A DNA stretch of 30,372 bases. It comes from a virus. The stretch covers positions 1 through 30,372 of the IMG/VR virus record IMGVR_UViG_3300003690_000159. One strand, written 5' to 3'. A model generated the notes under the pieces. It was not told the DNA's origin and made no database searches. It worked only from the letters and a program-made list of their open reading frames with translations. The position numbers were made by a program, and so were the translations under genes. Positions 20,119-30,372 of this stretch are shown here, in pieces; the stretch's first letter is position 1, and each line of letters starts with the position of its first letter.

Positions 20119-20954
20119 TATGTACTAATCTCTTGTGCCAAATTTTGAATTTTCAAAACCTTTTTAATCATTGCGATATCAATTGGTAAGTCCTTGAAAC
20201 TTTCTAACATGGAAATAACGTTTTGAGTAGAACGTGCCATATCAGCATCGTTCTTAATTTCATTATCTGTAAGCGCCTCTTTAAGCAATCCGTGAAGACG
20301 CGATAACTCTTCGTTTAAATATATTTTAATATCAACGCCATTATCAATAAACGAAAAAATATACCTATTTAACAACTCTTTTTGTTCTTTTAAAAAGGTA
20401 TTCGAATATGTGTCATTAAATTTTTCAACAAATGTTTTAAAAATCAAGTTATCAATTGGCTGCATCTTTTTTTGTTCTTCATTGCTTCGTGAAGCTGTGA
20501 GACTTGCTATAATCTTTGTTTCTAACAATACATTTGTTTTTACTTTATGTGCGCTAGTATCAGAGTTAAAAAATTGAGAAATTGTGGCGAGGCTTTTATA
20601 GTTTGGAACAAAATTTGAGTATACGCCCTTGGATAAAGTTTGATTAATTTGGTTTATTAGTTGCCCTTGTCGTATATAAACATCATCCTTATTAAGCTGG
20701 TTGTGCGCTTCGCGAACTTGAAATAATAATTTTTCGGCTGTATATGGCTCAATATCATCAGTTTCTAATAGTGCTTTATACAGTTCCAACTCCTTTGCCA
20801 AAACAGAATTCGAATTAAAATTCTTTTTTAGAATAGCTAAAACTTTATTTTTTTGCTGTTCGTCTTGTGACACAATGGCTTTAGTAGCCTCTCGTATAAG
20901 GATTTCATATAAAAATGCTGTATTTCTTTTTTTATTATGTCGGTTTTTACTCAT
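20118..20954 (-). CDS. Unrecognised helical protein after the portal
   Basis: This 278-residue helical protein begins with a basic segment (MSKNRHNKKRNTAFLYEILI). Further helices contain ATKAIVSQDEQQKNKVLAIL and TFVEKFNDTYSNTFLKEQKE. It lacks cysteine or metal motifs and a signal peptide. It overlaps the portal gene by 8 bases and the next gene by one, so translation is coupled. It might be an internal head or core protein. Function is not recognised. Confidence 0.65.
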   Translation of the reverse strand: MSKNRHNKKRNTAFLYEILIREATKAIVSQDEQQKNKVLAILKKNFNSNSVLAKELELYKALLETDDIEPYTAEKLLFQVREAHNQLNKDDVYIRQGQLINQINQTLSKGVYSNFVPNYKSLATISQFFNSDTSAHKVKTNVLLETKIIASLTASRSNEEQKKMQPIDNLIFKTFVEKFNDTYSNTFLKEQKELLNRYIFSFIDNGVDIKIYLNEELSRLHGLLKEALTDNEIKNDADMARSTQNVISMLESFKDLPIDIAMIKKVLKIQNLAQEIST

Positions 20955-22845
20955 CTGTGTTACCTAAACTACTGCTTTCCAGTTCAGTAATTAGTTTCTT
21001 AATTTCTTGTTTTACCTCAAATATTTTTCTTTCTTCTGAAGTATCTTGATACTTGCTAGACTCTTGATACATACCTGCTTTTCTGAACTCATCTCCAATA
21101 GAAGAAAGATGATGTAATGTTTCGTATCCCACGCCACCTGGGTTATTTGTCCTGGGTGTGTTTACTTCAACGCCTCGGGCTTTACTGCGGGCATGGCGCT
21201 TTCTTGGTCCACTATTACCTCTATATCTTTGATCGTCACGTTTTCCAGGGGCGGCCAATAATACATCTTCCTCGGCTTCTTCTCCACCAAGTTCTTCTCC
21301 ACCAAGTTCTTCTCCACCAAATTCTTCCTCGAATTCTCCACCTAATTCTCCACCGAGTTCTCCACCTAATCCTCCAGGTGCTCCAGCAGCAGCTTCAGCA
21401 ATAGAAGTGGCTTCAGCTTCTAACAACGCATCAAATCGTTTATCATAAAACATCTCGCGCTGATTTCTAATATACTCTTCTTCCGAAAGGTTAAATAGGC
21501 GATCCGCGATCCAGCGCCTGCTAAAGAATCCTTCTGTAGCTGCCCCGGCAATATCAAATTTAGTCTTCCAATGTTCAAGCTCTTGAAGTTCCGCGATCTT
21601 AGATGGGTTATTAAGAGAAAGCTTAAATCCAATTAAATCTGCACCTTTATATCCAAGTGTATATAAATGAATAATTCCTATTTTTTCTAACTCTGTAATG
21701 ATTGATCTTTGCAATCTTTGAATTGTTCTCGCAAAACGAATATCTTTTTGTGCAAGTGTTGTTTTGTCTTCATCGGCACCTTCGCCTCTTGAAAGATAAG
21801 ATTGCGGTACTTTTAATGCAGAAAATAGTTTATCTCTTAAATATTTAACATCATCGATATCGCCAGTATAAGCACCCCCTGACAAGGTTTCGACCTTAGA
21901 AGAGACGCCCCCACGGACAGGAATAAAATAATCTTCTTCCGTGCTCAGTGGATTATAACGCAAATCAACGCGACCCGTGCTAGCATCCACTACTTGATTA
22001 CGCTTCATTTGTGTCATGACTCGTTGCATATATTGTTCTACATCTTGAGGGGCAATATTGCCAACATCAATATAAAAAACTCGACGCTCAGGAGAACGTA
22101 CAATACGATATGCCATCATGGCATCTTCCAGAAGAACTAATTGACGGAATATTCTTCGGGCAGGCTCAAGAATTGAGGTGCCATAAGGAGCGTATTTATC
22201 ATTGCCCAAAATTCTAAAATGTGCAATCTGCCAATTTTCAAAAGTTAAACCGCCAGAGTTCCATTGGAACTGAACATATTTTGGATTGTCTTTATCTTCC
22301 CCTTCTAGGCGTTCAACTTCGTGCGTTGGAAGTCCAATTGCTGATTGTACACCAAGCTTGTCATCAATATCTAAGTAAAGAAAGAAGTCGCCATATTTAC
22401 ACATACCACGACACCAACCAAATAAATTAAATTCAATATTCAACACACTATGATATAACTCATCTAATGCTGATTTAATTTCTTCGTTATGGCATTTGAT
22501 ATTAAGAAGCGGTTGCAAGTCACTAGAGGTTGTCATTTCATCGGCATAAATATCAAGGGCTGAGGCAATCTCGGGAGTATACTCCATTTGTTCAAAGTCT
22601 TGATATCTCTCTGCCCTAAGCTGATTTGCCATAATGGCTGTGCTTAGCTGATCAAACGGATTATAGCTAGCCTTTTTAAAACTCAATCCACCAGCAGATT
22701 GAAACTTAAATTTGTCCAGTTGTCTCCGAGAAAGTCTCCTGCTTGTTTGAGTGCGATAATTAACAATCGGACCGGACAATAACCGAGTTAGTTGCTTGAA
22801 TAAAGCAGATTCAGAGTTTTTAACATTTTTCTTATTATTAGCCAT
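20947..22845 (-). CDS. gp20: Portal protein, T4 gp20-like
   Basis: This 632-residue protein forms the 12-mer DNA channel and terminase docking site. Recognisable portal segments are FEQMEYTPEIASALDIYADE (about 85-104), FGWCRGMCKYGDFFLYLDID, WQIAHFRILGNDKYAPYGTS followed by ILEPARRIFRQLVLLEDAMM, YRIVRSPERRVFYIDVGNI, and VKYLRDKLFSALKVPQSYLS with ADEDKTTLAQKDIRFART. T4 gp20 has 524 residues. The extra length is a C-terminal tail beyond about residue 485 holding a Gly/Glu repeat (residues about 490-523) and a basic stretch. The gene is 3 bases after the terminase gene, so the packaging genes are one unit. Confidence 0.95.
   Translation of the reverse strand: MANNKKNVKNSESALFKQLTRLLSGPIVNYRTQTSRRLSRRQLDKFKFQSAGGLSFKKASYNPFDQLSTAIMANQLRAERYQDFEQMEYTPEIASALDIYADEMTTSSDLQPLLNIKCHNEEIKSALDELYHSVLNIEFNLFGWCRGMCKYGDFFLYLDIDDKLGVQSAIGLPTHEVERLEGEDKDNPKYVQFQWNSGGLTFENWQIAHFRILGNDKYAPYGTSILEPARRIFRQLVLLEDAMMAYRIVRSPERRVFYIDVGNIAPQDVEQYMQRVMTQMKRNQVVDASTGRVDLRYNPLSTEEDYFIPVRGGVSSKVETLSGGAYTGDIDDVKYLRDKLFSALKVPQSYLSRGEGADEDKTTLAQKDIRFARTIQRLQRSIITELEKIGIIHLYTLGYKGADLIGFKLSLNNPSKIAELQELEHWKTKFDIAGAATEGFFSRRWIADRLFNLSEEEYIRNQREMFYDKRFDALLEAEATSIAEAAAGAPGGLGGELGGELGGEFEEEFGGEELGGEELGGEEAEEDVLLAAPGKRDDQRYRGNSGPRKRHARSKARGVEVNTPRTNNPGGVGYETLHHLSSIGDEFRKAGMYQESSKYQDTSEERKIFEVKQEIKKLITELESSSLGNTDE
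21277..21376 (-). repeat. Gly-Glu coding repeat in the portal tail
   Basis: Tandem, slightly diverged copies of a 12-15 base unit (minus strand: GGT GGA GAA GAA CTT) encode GGLGGELGGELGGEFEEEF and GGEELGGEELGGEEAEED. The copies nearest 21277-21320 are almost identical. This is a hinge-like acidic linker in the portal C-terminus. Confidence 0.85.
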
Positions 22846-22848
22846 TTT

Positions 22849-24438
22849 TTATCCTTTGTAAAGCCAGCCAAATTCTTGGATCATCTCTCTTGCCTGCTCT
22901 TCTTTGTTTTTAAGATCCATATCGCTTCGGTAGCCTTCTTGTCCTTTAATTTGAGTATTTAATTTTGTTGAGGCGACAAACATAGAATCAACAAAGACAT
23001 CTCTATATTGTTGTTCTAGTTTGTTTATTTCGAATGCTGTGTCTCTAACCCAGCAGCCAATCGCAAGAGCCATTACCAGATCATCATTATAGCTTCTCAT
23101 GGCTTCTGGCCTACCATGGTTCCAAATAAAAGTTTTTAATTCGTTGTACATCCTAGATGAATATATTGTAATTAGTTTATTTCTAATGAATTCTTCCAAT
23201 TTTGCAATGATTAAGGGGCGCGTCTTTGAAGTTGTAGAAAATCCAGCAACTGCATTAGACATATGTTCTCCTTGTAATTGCTCAATATATTCATGTGTTG
23301 ATTTAATAGAATAATATAAATTATTGTATTGTAGTTCTTGTAATTTTGACAGAATAGTAAATCCAACAGAATTATTTTCAACAACAATCATGGCATTATT
23401 ATATTCATGCCCTATGCTATTAGTCATATCAGCAAACACATCTGGTGTTGGCTTCCCCTGGTACTCTGCCACAACTTCCGCTGTCTCTAGTTTAATAACG
23501 TGAAGTGTGGAATTATCTTTACCATCGCCACGGGCAACATCAGCCGAGAGCAAATAATTACAACCATCTTGTGCCTTCTCCCATATCCAAAAGTTACGAT
23601 CAAAACCTGTTTTATATTGAGGCTCTTTAATTGTTGTTTCTATCCACTGTAGATCATCTGGATGAATAACTGTCTCACCAGACATATTAAAATTACATTC
23701 TAACTCTTGTGCAATTTGCCTCCGAGACATATTTTTAGTCTCTTTCTCAAACCATTCCTGATCTCTATCTGGGTGTTGGTCCCAGAGAAGCACAGTTGGG
23801 AAAAAATCATTTTGCCCTTGCGTTGAATCAATATATGCTTGATGAAACCAATTCCCAACGCCATTGGGGGTTGATAGCGCAATGCATCGCCCCCCGGTTG
23901 ATAAAGTCGGATATAGTCCTGTCCATAACTCATCTAATCCGTCAACATGTGCTGCCTCATCAACCACCAAAAGCGAAAGTGCTTCAGAGCGTCCAGCATC
24001 ACTAGAGGTTGAAGAAGCTTTAATTTCTGAGCCGTTAGACAAAACAAATGAGGCTCGATTGTCAATTGTGATATTGGCTATTTGTAGCCATGGCGGCAGA
24101 TTTTTAATGATATGTTTTACCTTTTTAACGAGGTTTGCCGCAGTTTGAAATTTAGTAGCGATTACAAGAATATTTTTATTTCTATGAAACATCATTAGCC
24201 ACACAACATAAGCAGCGGTTGCTGTTGAAATGCCTAACTGTCTTGCCTTTAATATAACATTAAAACGATGATCGTTAAAGTTTCTTAATAACTCTTCTTG
24301 AAAATCATAGAGCTTAAATGGAATTAATCCTTTTAGAGGGTGGGCAATTTTTGCATAACTGTTAATAAAATAAACTGGATCTTTGCCACTTTTAAGTACC
24401 TCTTTTAATATTTCATTTTTTGTAAGCTCAAACGACAT
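22849..24438 (-). CDS. gp17: Terminase large subunit, T4 gp17-like
   Basis: This 529-residue protein is the packaging ATPase and nuclease. The ATPase has Walker A KARQLGIST (64-72, the T4-style variant), Walker B LLVVDE (156-161) and coupling motif ALSTPNG (187-193). The nuclease has the RNase-H-type acidic residues in SADVARGDGKDNS (Asp300), IVVENNSVG (Glu354) and NDDLVMAL (Asp452/453). Length fits T4 gp17 (610) less its extended ends. The next gene is the portal, as needed for a packaging complex. No small terminase (gp16) could be identified in the window. Confidence 0.97.
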   Translation of the reverse strand: MSFELTKNEILKEVLKSGKDPVYFINSYAKIAHPLKGLIPFKLYDFQEELLRNFNDHRFNVILKARQLGISTATAAYVVWLMMFHRNKNILVIATKFQTAANLVKKVKHIIKNLPPWLQIANITIDNRASFVLSNGSEIKASSTSSDAGRSEALSLLVVDEAAHVDGLDELWTGLYPTLSTGGRCIALSTPNGVGNWFHQAYIDSTQGQNDFFPTVLLWDQHPDRDQEWFEKETKNMSRRQIAQELECNFNMSGETVIHPDDLQWIETTIKEPQYKTGFDRNFWIWEKAQDGCNYLLSADVARGDGKDNSTLHVIKLETAEVVAEYQGKPTPDVFADMTNSIGHEYNNAMIVVENNSVGFTILSKLQELQYNNLYYSIKSTHEYIEQLQGEHMSNAVAGFSTTSKTRPLIIAKLEEFIRNKLITIYSSRMYNELKTFIWNHGRPEAMRSYNDDLVMALAIGCWVRDTAFEINKLEQQYRDVFVDSMFVASTKLNTQIKGQEGYRSDMDLKNKEEQAREMIQEFGWLYKG

Positions 24439-24970: not shown

Positions 24971-25366
24971 TTATTTATTTTCTCCTTTTTTGGGACGCCA
25001 CCCTGTTTTCCAGCGCTCTTCCCTATTTTCAACCCACTGAACATAGCATTTAAAACAACAATCATACTTATTCATGTATACATCGTCTTGTCCGCTAAAA
25101 GAATAAACGTCACATACCTGACAAACTCTATTGCTATCCTTATTAAGTAGTTTTTTCGAGATTAAAAAACCTTCAATTTCAATTTTTTCAGACTTTTCTA
25201 AATTTGTTCGTACTTTTTGAGACAAAAGTTTAATTTGTTCTAAATATTGCTTTTCTTTTTCTTCGTCCCAATAGCGCTGAGGGTGCTGAACTGCCTCTTC
25301 TCCATATTTTTCTATTATAGCGTTCTCAACTTGAATAATATAATTAGGATCTTTGTGTTTTTTCAT
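24971..25366 (-). CDS. Small zinc-finger protein (131 residues)
   Basis: A start at MKKHKDPNYIIQVENAIIEK (25366) is preferred because it overlaps the stop of the upstream gene as ATGA; a longer frame starting at 25441 would lie wholly inside that gene. The N-terminal part is helical and charged. The C-terminal 45 residues contain CQVCDVYSFSGQDDVY, DCCFKCYVQWVENRE and RWKTGWRP, with two CxxC pairs that probably bind zinc, then a Trp-rich end. It could bind nucleic acid or protein. The function is unknown. Confidence 0.75.
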   Translation of the reverse strand: MKKHKDPNYIIQVENAIIEKYGEEAVQHPQRYWDEEKEKQYLEQIKLLSQKVRTNLEKSEKIEIEGFLISKKLLNKDSNRVCQVCDVYSFSGQDDVYMNKYDCCFKCYVQWVENREERWKTGWRPKKGENK

Positions 25367-25824
25367 TGTGCTATGTCTATTGCGGCATAAAATATTCCAA
25401 TAGAGGCAGCAGTGCCAAGAACGAAACCACCGATTGCCCACCAGTGATTATTTTTATTTGGCTGCTCAAGAGCCATGTCTCTATACATTTCCATTTCCTG
25501 ATCTTTAACTTCGAAAAGCAAAATCATTCTCTCGTTCTGTGAATTATAACTAGCCGCTAAGTTGTCAATTTGTAATTGATATCTGGCGTCGAGCTTAGCA
25601 AGTTCATACTCGACTCGTAAATCGCAATCAGACATAGAGAACTGATGTTCAGTAATTAGTTGTGCTGTTGCAGCAGGATTAAACAATGTTCCATCAAATG
25701 GTGCAGCATCGCCTTCTGATAAGTGAGTATACATTGGCTCTTCTTGATCCGAGTCTTGAGCAAAGACAGGAGCAGGAAAAAGTAAACTAAAAGTTAATAT
25801 TGGTGCAAGAATTTTATTTAACAT
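25363..25824 (-). CDS. Signal-peptide, coiled-coil, C-terminal membrane protein (spanin-like candidate)
   Basis: This 153-residue protein has a cleavable-looking signal peptide (MLNKILAPILTFSLLFPAPV, then FAQ; AxA-type cut after residue 22). An APFDGTLFNPAATAQLI motif (41-57) follows, then a helix/coil (70-120, with MEMYRDMALEQ). A C-terminal membrane segment WWAIGGFVLGTAASIGIFYA (128-147) ends it. One cysteine lies at 67, away from the signal end, so it is not a typical lipoprotein. The topology of a signal plus coil plus C-terminal membrane helix resembles u-spanins. It overlaps the upstream coiled-coil membrane gene by 11 bases. A lysis role is inferred from topology only. Confidence 0.65.
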   Translation of the reverse strand: MLNKILAPILTFSLLFPAPVFAQDSDQEEPMYTHLSEGDAAPFDGTLFNPAATAQLITEHQFSMSDCDLRVEYELAKLDARYQLQIDNLAASYNSQNERMILLFEVKDQEMEMYRDMALEQPNKNNHWWAIGGFVLGTAASIGIFYAAIDIAQ

Positions 25825-26224
25825 ATTTAAATCCGAATTCGCCTTCTAAGCGGCGGTTTAGTTCCTCTGTATCATTATAATACGAATCTATAAGAGTTTT
25901 TATTTTAGCTCTTTTCTGAAATGTTAGGGCATCGAGTTCTGATTTATATTCATGATCCAGGTGTACCATTATCTCGTTGTATGCTTCGAGTGCCTTATTT
26001 CGTTCTTCCAATTCGTCCTGATAGGTTCTATCAATGATACCAATCTGTTCTTTATAACTCTCTATTGTTTTGCTAAGAACCTTTTTGTGTGCATTTATAT
26101 TTTTTTTAGCCACAACCCAAATAACAGCAGTCCACAAAGCCAACAACGCAAGTTTCCAGTGATGCTTGCACCATACCCAAGCTTTTTGCAAAAATGCCGA
26201 AACTGCTAACCACGATAAGTTCAT
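25814..26224 (-). CDS. Membrane-anchored coiled-coil protein (i-spanin-like candidate)
   Basis: This 136-residue protein has a single N-terminal membrane segment (WKLALLALWTAVIWVVA, about 23-39) followed by a long charged coiled coil (YKEQIGIIDRTYQDELEERN, KALEAYNEIMVHLDHEYKSE, up to about residue 125). This is the shape of Rz-type i-spanins, but also of other anchored coils. Its ATG overlaps the stop of the 64-residue gene (ATGA). It overlaps the next gene by 11 bases, as nested or overlapping spanin genes often do. Confidence 0.6.
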   Translation of the reverse strand: MNLSWLAVSAFLQKAWVWCKHHWKLALLALWTAVIWVVAKKNINAHKKVLSKTIESYKEQIGIIDRTYQDELEERNKALEAYNEIMVHLDHEYKSELDALTFQKRAKIKTLIDSYYNDTEELNRRLEGEFGFKYVK

Positions 26225-26436: not shown

Positions 26437-29400
26437 TTATTGGCTGACATATGCAAACCCATTATTCTTTTCTATATTAATTATCACATCAACACAATCT
26501 TTTAAAGAATCGAGGTGAGAAATTAAAATTACAGTCTTAAAATATGATTTAACCATATCTAATATTCTAACAAAACCTTCTAAATTCTCTGCATCCAATG
26601 CGGTTCCAGGCTCATCAAGAATAAATATATTAGACTTTGGTAGATTGCTAACCTGCAAGAGCGCGAGTCGAATCGCCATGGAGGCAATCGTCTTTTCGGC
26701 ACCAGAGCCCATTTCGATTGGTCTGGGCTCATGCTTTGGATGCTTAATATAAACGTTTAAACGTCTGCCATCATTCTCGAATAAGACTTCAAAGTCTACA
26801 ATATTTGCCAATACCTTTGCGATTTCTTCATTAATTGTTGGTAGCTTCTTTTTAATAATATCATAAGAAATACCACTTGTATGCATACACCGCATAAATA
26901 AGTCATATGCAGAATATTCCTCTCGTAACTCTGCTAATTCATTTTTTTGTTCAATTAAGTTTTGCAGTTTCTGCTCATAAGAGCCATGAGAAATATATAA
27001 CTCATTTAGCTCTTGTTGACATTTATCGAACTTTTTCTCTATTTTTGTAAGCGATGTGATATATTGTTTTCTGTTTGCAACAAGCTGTCCCAAATTTTCA
27101 ATTGCTTCTTTGTTTTGTTCATATATTGTAATCTCTTTTTCTAAATTCTCAATTTCATGTTTGAACACTTCCAGCTTTGATAAGTTATTTTGTATTTCCA
27201 AATCGGAAACAGAAATATGATGTTCAACTTGCTGTTGTCTGTCAACCAATAAGCTATACTTGTTTAGATAGTCGTTGAGTTTATCGACATCAAGTTCATA
27301 TATTTCCTCCAAAAGTTGCACGCTTTGCTTGCGAAGGTCGGTAACTTCTGTCACCATATCTGGTAGTTTGTCTTTTGCCTTGTGAGCATCACAAATAAAC
27401 TTACAAGTTGGGAATGAATCTCCACATGGGACTTCTTCAAGAAGTCCAACCTTCTTTCTATGAGTATTAATGTCTTTATTGCTGTTTGATAAAAGATTCA
27501 AAAGTTCTTCATACTCTTCGTTTTTATCATCTACATTCTTTTTCTGGTTTCGTAAATTTTCAATATCATAATCTTGTAGAAAGCTGTTTAGCTTTTCGAT
27601 GATGCCTTTATTCTCATCATTTGTTTCAATGATATCTTTATTTTCTTTAATAAGTTTCTGAACTTCGCTTTTCTTTTCTGCGAGCATATTATTTGTTGCA
27701 TCAATATTAATAATATCTATCGGAATAGAGTCTATCTTATTTTCTATCTCGGTTAATAATATATTGGCATCTGAAATCTGCTCTTGATACGCAGAACATT
27801 CCTGTGTATGTGTGTCAATGTTTTGTTGGCTTTGTTCTATTTCTTGTCGTGCAATGTCAATCTCGTCATCGTATTCTCTTCCCTCAAGCCGCTTAAGTGC
27901 TCCGCGCAAATCCGAAGCGTCATCTTTTGCCATCTTAAACTTCATGTCAAAAATTTCGAGATCAAGAAACTTGGCAAGGATTTCCTTGCGTCGTGTTGAT
28001 CCTTCCTTAATAAACGTTAAACTATCCAACTGAGATGCCATCGAAGTGAGCAAAAAATCATCTAGGGTGCCGAACATCTTGCGAATATTCTTATCTGTGT
28101 CATTGCGGGTTAATCCATTATGGCTCACAACTTCATTTGTAATGGCATTAACTTCATAAAATTCAACAGTTGTCTTTGCTTCCTGAGTTTCCTCCCCCTT
28201 GAGCTTCTTAATATACTTTTCACTTTCACGCTCAATTACAAACTGTTTATCGCCAATAGAAATTCCTATCCTCCCAATGCCTCTCTCCTTGTTCTGGTTA
28301 ATAACGTTAAGATTCTTCCGTTCATTTTTCGAGGTGGAGTTGAACAGCGTATACAGGGCAGCATCCACTATGCTCGACTTACCTGAGTAGTTTTTTCCGA
28401 AGATTCCTATAATACCACTGAGGTTGGTAAAGTCTATGGAGTTTTTCTCACCATAATTAAACAGGTTGTCCCACTCAAACGAATTAAGTTGCCAGTTAAT
28501 ATTTCGGGCAACCTCTTCGTTCTCCTCAACTGCTCTATTATATTTTAAGTTGAGCTTTGAAACCCTGTCTATAACATCATCCTCAACTTCATATTCTTTC
28601 AAAAATTCTTTAATTAATTTCTTCTGAACCGTGAGATCGCGGAGATTTTCTTTTATAAAGTCATCATGATGCTTCGCAATATCAACTGCTCGCTTCATCT
28701 TGTTAAGTGGAAGATTGTTATTAGAAACCATACGAAGACGAGCACCCTGCGGAATATTAATACCCTTTGGCATTCTACCCTTTGGTGTTAGCTCGATTGT
28801 AATAAATGGTTTGGGATTTTTTAACTCAATATGTCGGACATTAAAGATATCCTTATTTTCAATTTCCCAAATCAAAAAACCTTTATTATTTGTTTCACCA
28901 TGATTTTGTTGAACGGTACTTCCACAATAGCGTATGCGTCCTTCAAAGTCAAGTGCCTGTGCTTTATGAATATCGCCCAGTAAACCAAAGTCAAACTTAG
29001 TAAAAATATTTAGCTCATGCTCTCCGTGCTCCATTACCCAGCCGATGTCGGTCTTGCAATTACTTATCGATCCATGATAAAGAGCAATGTTTATCTTATT
29101 CAAATCTGTCGGCTCAACCCAATTGTCCTCATCAAAGACGGAAAGAATATTAAAACACAGATTATCATCAACATGATACTCGCCAGAATTCTTAAAAAAA
29201 TGAATATCTGGATGCTCTAATGCTTGAATTATCGGAGTAATCGCATCTTGGCGGCTACTGTTCTTTAAATTGCCATCATGATTACCTGGAACCATTATCA
29301 ATGGGGCGATATCTGCCAAGCTCTTGATAAAGTCCGTAGCGAGTTCAAAATATTCTGGCGATAACTGTGTTTTAGTATGTGCCAAATCTCCGCAATGAAC

Positions 29401-29520
29401 AATGTAATCTGGTTTCTCTTCTTGAAGAATAGAGAACATTTCTGCGAATATCTTGCGATATTCATAATGATATTTTAGATTTTTAATATGCGTATCAGCA
29501 ATGTGCGCAATCTTAATCAT
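26437..29520 (-). CDS. Natural fusion of Mre11/SbcD-type nuclease (gp47) and Rad50/SbcC-type ATPase (gp46)
   Basis: One 1027-residue frame carries both subunits of the DNA-end processing complex. Residues 1-240 are a calcineurin-like phosphoesterase: DTH (9-11), CGDLAH (43-48), GNHD (79-82), YHG (148-150) and LGDIHKA (181-187). Residues about 250-345 are a linker/capping region. Residues 345-1027 are a Rad50 head with Walker A GIFGKNYSGKSS (372-383), a coiled coil, an apex with C699, C706, C710 (EVPCGDSFPTCKFICDAHK), a returning coil, ABC signature EMGSGAEKT (936-944), Walker B FILDEPGTALDAE (966-978) and switch SH (1001-1002). All catalytic motifs are intact. T4, E. coli and eukaryotes use separate genes. 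It precedes a lysis/head operon and follows primase. Confidence 0.95.
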   Translation of the reverse strand: MIKIAHIADTHIKNLKYHYEYRKIFAEMFSILQEEKPDYIVHCGDLAHTKTQLSPEYFELATDFIKSLADIAPLIMVPGNHDGNLKNSSRQDAITPIIQALEHPDIHFFKNSGEYHVDDNLCFNILSVFDEDNWVEPTDLNKINIALYHGSISNCKTDIGWVMEHGEHELNIFTKFDFGLLGDIHKAQALDFEGRIRYCGSTVQQNHGETNNKGFLIWEIENKDIFNVRHIELKNPKPFITIELTPKGRMPKGINIPQGARLRMVSNNNLPLNKMKRAVDIAKHHDDFIKENLRDLTVQKKLIKEFLKEYEVEDDVIDRVSKLNLKYNRAVEENEEVARNINWQLNSFEWDNLFNYGEKNSIDFTNLSGIIGIFGKNYSGKSSIVDAALYTLFNSTSKNERKNLNVINQNKERGIGRIGISIGDKQFVIERESEKYIKKLKGEETQEAKTTVEFYEVNAITNEVVSHNGLTRNDTDKNIRKMFGTLDDFLLTSMASQLDSLTFIKEGSTRRKEILAKFLDLEIFDMKFKMAKDDASDLRGALKRLEGREYDDEIDIARQEIEQSQQNIDTHTQECSAYQEQISDANILLTEIENKIDSIPIDIINIDATNNMLAEKKSEVQKLIKENKDIIETNDENKGIIEKLNSFLQDYDIENLRNQKKNVDDKNEEYEELLNLLSNSNKDINTHRKKVGLLEEVPCGDSFPTCKFICDAHKAKDKLPDMVTEVTDLRKQSVQLLEEIYELDVDKLNDYLNKYSLLVDRQQQVEHHISVSDLEIQNNLSKLEVFKHEIENLEKEITIYEQNKEAIENLGQLVANRKQYITSLTKIEKKFDKCQQELNELYISHGSYEQKLQNLIEQKNELAELREEYSAYDLFMRCMHTSGISYDIIKKKLPTINEEIAKVLANIVDFEVLFENDGRRLNVYIKHPKHEPRPIEMGSGAEKTIASMAIRLALLQVSNLPKSNIFILDEPGTALDAENLEGFVRILDMVKSYFKTVILISHLDSLKDCVDVIINIEKNNGFAYVSQ

Positions 29521-29532
29521 ATTTCCTCTTAT

Positions 29533-30372
29533 TTAAATACTAGCAATAGCGTTCTCTAAAAAATAATCCATTTCTTGAACGCGCTTAGCATTTTGTTTTC
29601 TTATGGCAAATTCACTTTTGCTCATCTCGCCAATATCTTGATATCCACTTGTGTCTATTTTAAAAACTTCCAAGCCATAAGTCAAAAAAAGTTTCATAAT
29701 TTTACTTTCTTTTTCTTGAGCATCAGGATCAAGTGCAAGAAATACTGGAGTATCGTTTTGGGCTATTTTCATAAAAAGTTTAGAATTTGGACGTAATGTG
29801 GAACCAAGTAGCGGTACAGCATTTGGACCAGCGACGATGGCATCAAATATGCCTTCTGTTAATACCAAATCACTATCCCATTCCAAATAAAGTTCATTAA
29901 AAATAATGTCTTTAGACACAGGAGGATTTAAATACTTGAAAGAATCTGGAGAAAGGCTTCTGGCTATAAAATAATTTAAATTTCCATTTTTATCGAAAGA
30001 GGGCACAATAATGCGATTTGCATATCCGCCTTCTATGCAATATCCTATTTTCCAATATAGAATATCTTTCTCTATAATACCACGTTTTTTAAGATAATTC
30101 AATGCTGGGAGTGTCGATAATGTTTTGCCATTACTTAATGAAACAAACCCACTTGGTAAAGTAACTATTTGCGAATCTGCTTGTCTAATGGGCAATTCTG
30201 CGAATAATTCATCGAATTCAGTAATATCGATTCGATTTGTAAGCTTATCCCATTCTTGTAATTGTGTAAATGTTCCAAATCTGCGAACAAGGCGACGAAT
30301 ATCTCTGCCTATTGTCTCGCAGATCCAGCATTTATAAACATTTTTTTCTACGTTGACGGAAAGCTTCTTTTT
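29533..30372 (-). CDS. DnaG-like DNA primase, partial (N-terminus outside the window)
   Basis: The frame is open to the right edge, so the gene begins upstream. The first visible residues contain CWIC (15-18) in KNVYKCWICETIGRDIRRLV, the second half of the zinc-binding domain. A short N-terminal catalytic region follows. The TOPRIM fold shows VLTEGIFDAI (Glu at about 173) and FLALDPDAQE (DxD at 215-217). These catalyse RNA primer synthesis. A TTG at 30195 could be a start but would delete the zinc domain, so the longer frame is preferred. The stop is 12 bases from the nuclease-ATPase fusion, in one replication and repair unit. Confidence 0.85.
   Translation of the reverse strand, partial: KKKLSVNVEKNVYKCWICETIGRDIRRLVRRFGTFTQLQEWDKLTNRIDITEFDELFAELPIRQADSQIVTLPSGFVSLSNGKTLSTLPALNYLKKRGIIEKDILYWKIGYCIEGGYANRIIVPSFDKNGNLNYFIARSLSPDSFKYLNPPVSKDIIFNELYLEWDSDLVLTEGIFDAIVAGPNAVPLLGSTLRPNSKLFMKIAQNDTPVFLALDPDAQEKESKIMKLFLTYGLEVFKIDTSGYQDIGEMSKSEFAIRKQNAKRVQEMDYFLENAIASI

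Follow-up and report, generated by a model that had tools for sequence, protein, structure and literature searches.

The window analysed here, the whole 30,372-nucleotide stretch of the IMG/VR virus record IMGVR_UViG_3300003690_000159, raised the question of whether a virus carries Mre11 and Rad50 (SbcD and SbcC) joined in one polypeptide, and what such a protein would do for it. The gene in question occupied positions 26437–29520 on the minus strand, which also carries the primase, terminase and portal genes described below, and formed an unbroken frame of 1027 codons plus a stop that began with ATG and was preceded, 5–8 bases upstream, by GAGG (29525–29528), an RBS-like sequence read directly from the DNA. 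Pfam placed Metallophos at residues 2–165 and AAA_23/SMC_N at residues 346–1018, and PHROGs assigned the same single chain to the SbcD-like phrog_100 (residues 1–444) and the SbcC-like phrog_77 (230–1027). The frame, the Pfam domains and the PHROGs assignments together confirmed the reading in the earlier note of a phosphoesterase followed by an SMC/Rad50 ATPase, with Mre11 first, and the residues it had named (D9/H11, D45, N80/H81, H149, H185, Walker A, the signature, Walker B, and the cysteines C699, C706 and C710) were all at the positions it had given.

Of the 273 relatives that a first IMG/VR scan yielded, the best 80 were fetched; each held one long frame of about 1030–1080 residues that spanned both domains or was cut by a contig end, and the fusion was conserved among them at 51–79% identity. 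In close pairs, fourfold sites were near saturation and head protein identity was still 80–90%, so that conservation of the fusion at 51–79% identity excluded chance. After further scans the family set held 181 distinct fusions of full or nearly full length, including the window copy and that of Microcystis phage Mel-JY01, and the two-domain order proposed earlier as something to search for was present in all 181. On twelve contigs of 83–204 kb the fusion was the sole Mre11/Rad50, with no separate gp46/gp47 pair; a check with phrog_100 gave the same result for nine large contigs and Mel-JY01, and one contig carried an additional small phosphoesterase of 233 residues. A scan of genome contigs gave 11 loci, all of them in MAGs, mostly on short contigs and several with phage-like neighbours, and a cellular origin was rejected as no clear cellular gene was among them.

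Several other loci departed from this pattern. A WOR-3 MAG chromosome (CP070664.1, locus L113, 4962–7055) carried a 76%-identical truncated fusion, covering residues 1–604, with masked bases and genes for a primase and a RuvC-like protein nearby, which would fit either a prophage remnant or a chimeric assembly. In a 484 kb phage (LR756508.1, L107, 3665–4579), an endonuclease ORF, HNH-like in PHROGs and with a TnsA-like N-terminal match in Pfam, split the Mre11 domain just after GDIHKRQ; a group I intron at this site was rejected, as Rfam gave no match. A 735 kb phage (LR756501.1, L108) encoded a fused Mre11-Rad50 of 1202 residues together with a separate SbcC-like ORF of 618 residues elsewhere. 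The more distant 951-residue fusion of Xanthomonas phage phiXF1 (L109, 3857–6712), annotated as "hypothetical protein", had a CPTC hook and a GDLH nuclease motif.

The Mre11 nuclease domain (residues 1–232, positions 28825–29520) contained D9, H11, D45, H48, N80, H81, H149, D183 and H185. The earlier note had called it a complete phosphoesterase, which held for the residues it listed; the domain was not quite canonical, as the GHxH motif read GDxH (GDIH), with D183 at the position of the His206 ligand of P. furiosus Mre11 and every other ligand of the Mn-binding set present. D183 was invariant in 181/181 sequences, and H48, which replaces the third Asp of GDxxD, was found in all 173 sequences that had a residue at that position. 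The remaining metal-binding and catalytic residues were invariant or nearly so in the family alignment.

The nuclease domain was followed by a capping domain (residues 239–283, positions 28672–28806), truncated in the window copy as judged from the AlphaFold2 (AF2) model and the alignment of relatives, and by a C-terminal helix-loop-helix (residues 296–334, positions 28519–28635), predicted at helices 296–310 and 314–334. For structure comparison, the Mre11 part was modelled on a close relative, L002, rather than on the window copy. The L002 model showed a nuclease fold with a capping domain and a helix-loop-helix; its nuclease and capping domains matched S. aureus SbcD (7dog_A) with a Z of 25.6 and an rmsd of 3.7 over 276 residues. 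The alignment with T. maritima Mre11 (3tho_B) spanned residues 2–357, through the helix-loop-helix, with a Z of 25.1 and an rmsd of 10.9 over 312 residues. E. coli SbcD also aligned through the helix-loop-helix, and 3tho_B and 6s85_B were among the matches that spanned it; the large rmsd of some of these alignments arose because the domains move. The suggestion that the linker at residues 240–345 includes the Rad50-binding end of Mre11 was therefore upheld by the predicted helix-loop-helix and by the alignment of this region of L002 with solved Mre11 and SbcD structures. As the helix-loop-helix ended at residue 334 and the first Rad50 strand began at 342 in the model, only about seven residues (335–341, positions 28498–28518) tethered Mre11 to Rad50.

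The Rad50 half began with an N-terminal ATPase lobe (residues 342–545, positions 27886–28497), delimited by Pfam, AF2 and structure matches. Walker A was GKNYSGKS (residues 375–382, positions 28375–28398), the signature GSGAEK (938–943, positions 26692–26709) and Walker B FILDEP (966–971, positions 26608–26625). The full ATPase set was present, with G380/K381/S382, the Q-loop Q497, S939/G940/E942 of the signature, D969/E970 of Walker B, the D-loop D976 and the H-switch H1002, and these motifs were invariant in the family. Residues 343–1027 matched E. coli SbcC (7yzo_D) with a Z of 31.6 and an rmsd of 3.4 over 351 residues, and the structure search also aligned them with archaeal Rad50. AF2 modelling of the whole window protein, built with 62 relatives, gave a mean pLDDT of 83.9 and a pTM of 0.49; a pTM of that size does not establish how Mre11, heads and coil lie relative to one another, and their arrangement is left uninterpreted. 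The closest viral structures were full-length fusions of NCLDV (for example, Tupanvirus A0A6N1NVE8, E 8.5e-61, 1307 columns); the best matches were fusions of Tupanvirus, Harvfovirus, Yasminevirus and Catovirus, followed by Tenacibaculum phages pT24/PTm1 and Listeria phage LMTA-57.

One feature set the window copy apart from its family. At about residue 285 it was without 23 residues (69 bp) of the capping domain that were present in 180/180 aligned relatives, the window being alone in this among the 181. The junction, VDIAKH^HDDFIKENLRD, lay at positions 28666–28671; L002 and L003 read AKHRFKPESITFLNRALGNRS..DDFIKENLRD at the gap, and the window read AKHHDDFIKENLRD. From the capping helix to NLRD there were 13 residues in the window versus 33–37 in the relatives, and the missing piece contained the last capping-domain strand (E290–295 in the L002 model). 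Residues 285–289 were the sole part of the window model with a pLDDT below 50, and an exact search for the junction in other virus contigs returned none. Either the virus has truly lost these codons in frame or the assembly is faulty here; in both cases the question of the fusion is untouched.

Whether the gap disables the protein bears on how this particular copy is read. Loss of a capping strand kept in every relative would favour an inactive protein; yet the loss of 69 bp preserves the reading frame exactly, the rest of the gene is intact and conserved, and the gap may be a fault of the assembly that is not in the virus, so a defective copy is doubtful. The odd linker gap could also be taken to suggest that an assembly or consensus error had joined separate gp47 and gp46 genes into one frame, the worry raised in the earlier note. 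That explanation is hardly credible and was rejected for the fusion, as the same fusion was unbroken and without the gap in all 180 of the other sequences, which came mostly from separate virus contigs of many samples and included that of the isolate Mel-JY01; the worry was thereby answered as far as the fusion is concerned, whereas the gap itself may still be an assembly fault. An Mre11-Rad50 fusion with its two parts in operon order was thus supported as genuine.

A true fusion gene could still yield the usual two subunits as its working form, through protease cleavage or an internal start, and the models did contain a flexible, low-confidence stretch between the capping domain and the helix-loop-helix. 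Against this, a separate Rad50 made from an internal start was ruled out, as no ATG, GTG or TTG lay between residues 307 and 385 of the window fusion, and the helix-loop-helix, the tether of only about seven residues and the Rad50 start were conserved among relatives, making a two-subunit form very unlikely. Somewhat less remote, though still unlikely, is a mainly structural DNA tether with weak or altered nuclease activity. The Asp at the His206 ligand position throughout the family, the same change in Mimivirus R555 (PMC3175470) and the incomplete capping domain of the window copy would accord with such a role, and GDxH at a metal ligand suggests that metal use and activity may differ. However, the other metal-binding and catalytic residues were invariant or nearly so, which argues for selection on catalysis, and the ATPase motifs were invariant as well.

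The reading we prefer, with a probability of roughly 85%, is that the gene product is a one-chain viral Mre11-Rad50 nuclease that processes and tethers DNA ends for recombination-dependent replication. Its nuclease and ATPase activities, dimer geometry and replication role are deduced from the features above, from the gene surroundings and from the precedent of T4 gp46/gp47 in recombination-dependent replication (PMC3175470). Two chains would together correspond to the M2R2 complex, with the Mre11 domains pairing and each Mre11 helix-loop-helix resting at the base of the Rad50 coiled coil of either its own chain or the partner chain. ATP would open and close the Rad50 heads, and the coil tips would join via a metal hook. 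Ends of phage DNA would be trimmed and tethered so that UvsX/RecA could start recombination-dependent replication, with the neighbouring primase and RuvC-like resolvase acting alongside. The proposal that fusion fixes the stoichiometry at 1:1 was not supported, since the separate proteins already assemble as 2+2 and fusion does not alter the ratio.

The gene neighbourhood was that of a T4-like phage. A DnaG-type primase (29533–30372; Pfam, PHROGs), cut by the contig end, lay directly upstream of the fusion, and the window also carried a T4 gp20-like portal (20947–22845; Pfam, isolate comparison), a terminase large subunit (22849–24438; Pfam, PHROGs), and T4-like head and sheath genes. The nearest isolates by portal were Mel-JY01 (44%) and Flavobacterium phage immuto (41%). 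Among the 60 loci with enough flank, a crude motif search placed a primase upstream of the fusion in 49, and in most of these the two genes overlapped or lay no more than about 30 bases apart. The same search placed a RuvC-like resolvase ahead of the primase in at least 36. Resolvase, primase and fusion formed a conserved operon in which the genes often overlapped or nearly touched, as in L003 (4492–5988). RecA/UvsX was present in seven of nine large contigs and in Mel-JY01. In immuto (L106, 3838–5542) the fusion was absent and a PD-(D/E)XK exonuclease stood in the same slot right after the primase, a possible functional replacement. Between the fusion and the terminase of the window (24971–26224) were three small genes with no family match, one with a signal-peptide-like start and a C-terminal hydrophobic segment and another overlapping it; they possibly have lysis functions.

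The arrangement itself was not new. Yoshida, Claverie and Ogata described Mre11/Rad50 fusions in 2011 in Mimivirus R555, a Bacillus phage, plasmids, bacteria and eukaryotes, and reported R555 homologues to be abundant in marine viral fractions, on scaffolds that carry phage primases; many were argued to be phage-borne (PMC3175470). A second report of such fusions was not found in open-access papers. R555 and its marine (GOS) homologues share with the window family the single chain with Mre11 first and a region of capping and helix-loop-helix length between the domains, the spacing in R555 being compatible with a helix-loop-helix (PMC3175470). R555 also has GDxxH for the bacterial GDxxD and an Asp for His206, giving GDxH for GHxH (PMC3175470), as at H48 and D183 here, and its metagenome homologues have a primase neighbour, as the window fusion does. 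In contrast, R555 is 1351 residues long against 1027–1060 in the window family, which is carried by a T4-like tailed phage; the apex of the window fusion is CX6C. The best full-length structure matches were Mimiviridae-type proteins, such as that of Tupanvirus, and the window family and R555 may descend from one fusion event or from independent ones. The marine reads of the 2011 study probably sampled the family to which the window fusion belongs.

Other systems were alike in part. T4 and cyanophages such as P-SSM2 have Mre11 before Rad50 (gp47/gp46), a gp20-like portal and a presumed role in recombination-dependent replication; they differ in having two genes with small ORFs between, a CPTC hook and a GHxH nuclease motif. 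E. coli SbcD/SbcC and archaeal and eukaryotic Mre11/Rad50 share all domains and ATPase motifs, with structure matches at Z 20–32, but are separate subunits with a canonical CXXC zinc hook and GHxH (see also PMC3175470). Mel-JY01 (PP395634, WWT39521.1) has a fusion, annotated merely as "AAA domain containing protein", with a primase upstream and a related T4-like portal; its fusion differs in being 30.7% identical, with a CXXC(C) hook and a DNA methylase downstream.

The apex of the coil varied in kind across the family. In the window it was CGDSFPTC (residues 699–706, positions 27403–27426), with C699 and C706 forming a CX6C hook in the alignment and the AF2 model rather than the CXXC of the zinc hook. 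The earlier note had described the apex as C-x6-C-x3-C; the departure from CXXC stood, but the conserved motif was CX6C and the type of hook varied within the family. The third cysteine, C710, was rejected as a ligand, as it was Cys in only 12/181 sequences. The CX6C pair would presumably bind zinc. Relatives had CXXC, CX7C and CXC at the same place: of the 181 sequences, 128 had CX6–7C, 38 had CXXC in EYDPDCKFCCENKFV and the like, 8 had CXC in GCKCL and 7 had a short CXXC. The unfused SbcC of Moorella phage MTATph1 had a similar wide-spaced hook, VPCNDKLKPSC, indicating that wide spacing is not tied to fusion.

Hook type changed between otherwise similar proteins. The window and L004 were 74% identical overall and both flanks of the apex matched, yet the tip differed (about 11 versus 14 residues), and switches were seen at the apex of L004, L032, L045, L056 and L213, with the flanking coil retained. 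The tree of the heads required 16 hook-type changes, at least 14 of them forced by well-supported branches; trees from Mre11, the Rad50 heads and the coil without the hook required 15, 16 and 16 changes (14, 14 and 11 forced), all being quick trees with SH-aLRT support only. One hook type has thus given way to another at least 11–14 times by replacement of the tip, while the coil on either side was retained. Whole-coil recombination was rejected as the cause, as fourfold sites were near saturation and the coil was more diverged than the heads in only some pairs (L016/L045, L032/L023 and the same-hook pair L039/L056) and not in window/L004. Since coil trees without the hook still needed 16 changes, the exchanged piece seems small, and the hook seems to be an exchangeable cassette of about 11–14 residues among phages whose proteins are otherwise 70–90% identical. 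Distant branches carried such similar versions of the EYDPDC..CCEN cassette that we consider exchange more probable than several independent origins.

Neither CX6C hooks nor turnover of the hook in Rad50 was found reported in open-access papers. An engineered hook-to-hinge swap has been made in yeast, and the natural swaps agree with it (PMC6969161). As a tentative explanation, which we regard as possible rather than probable, unlike hooks may fail to pair, which would allow self-recognition against the Rad50 of a co-infecting relative, or the swaps may tune the stability of the hook.

The 2011 study could only infer a phage location from short reads; the loci described here showed that the abundant R555-like marine fusion genes belong to genomes of T4-like phages, where they have a primase and a RuvC-like resolvase as neighbours and stand in for gp46/gp47. 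At about 1050 residues, a single-chain Mre11-Rad50 also lends itself well to structural studies. The exchange of hooks is the part that specialists might not expect. In these phages the clasp has been swapped repeatedly while the remaining machine is unchanged, and the turnover of the hook is a natural experiment on the debated purpose of the Rad50 hook.
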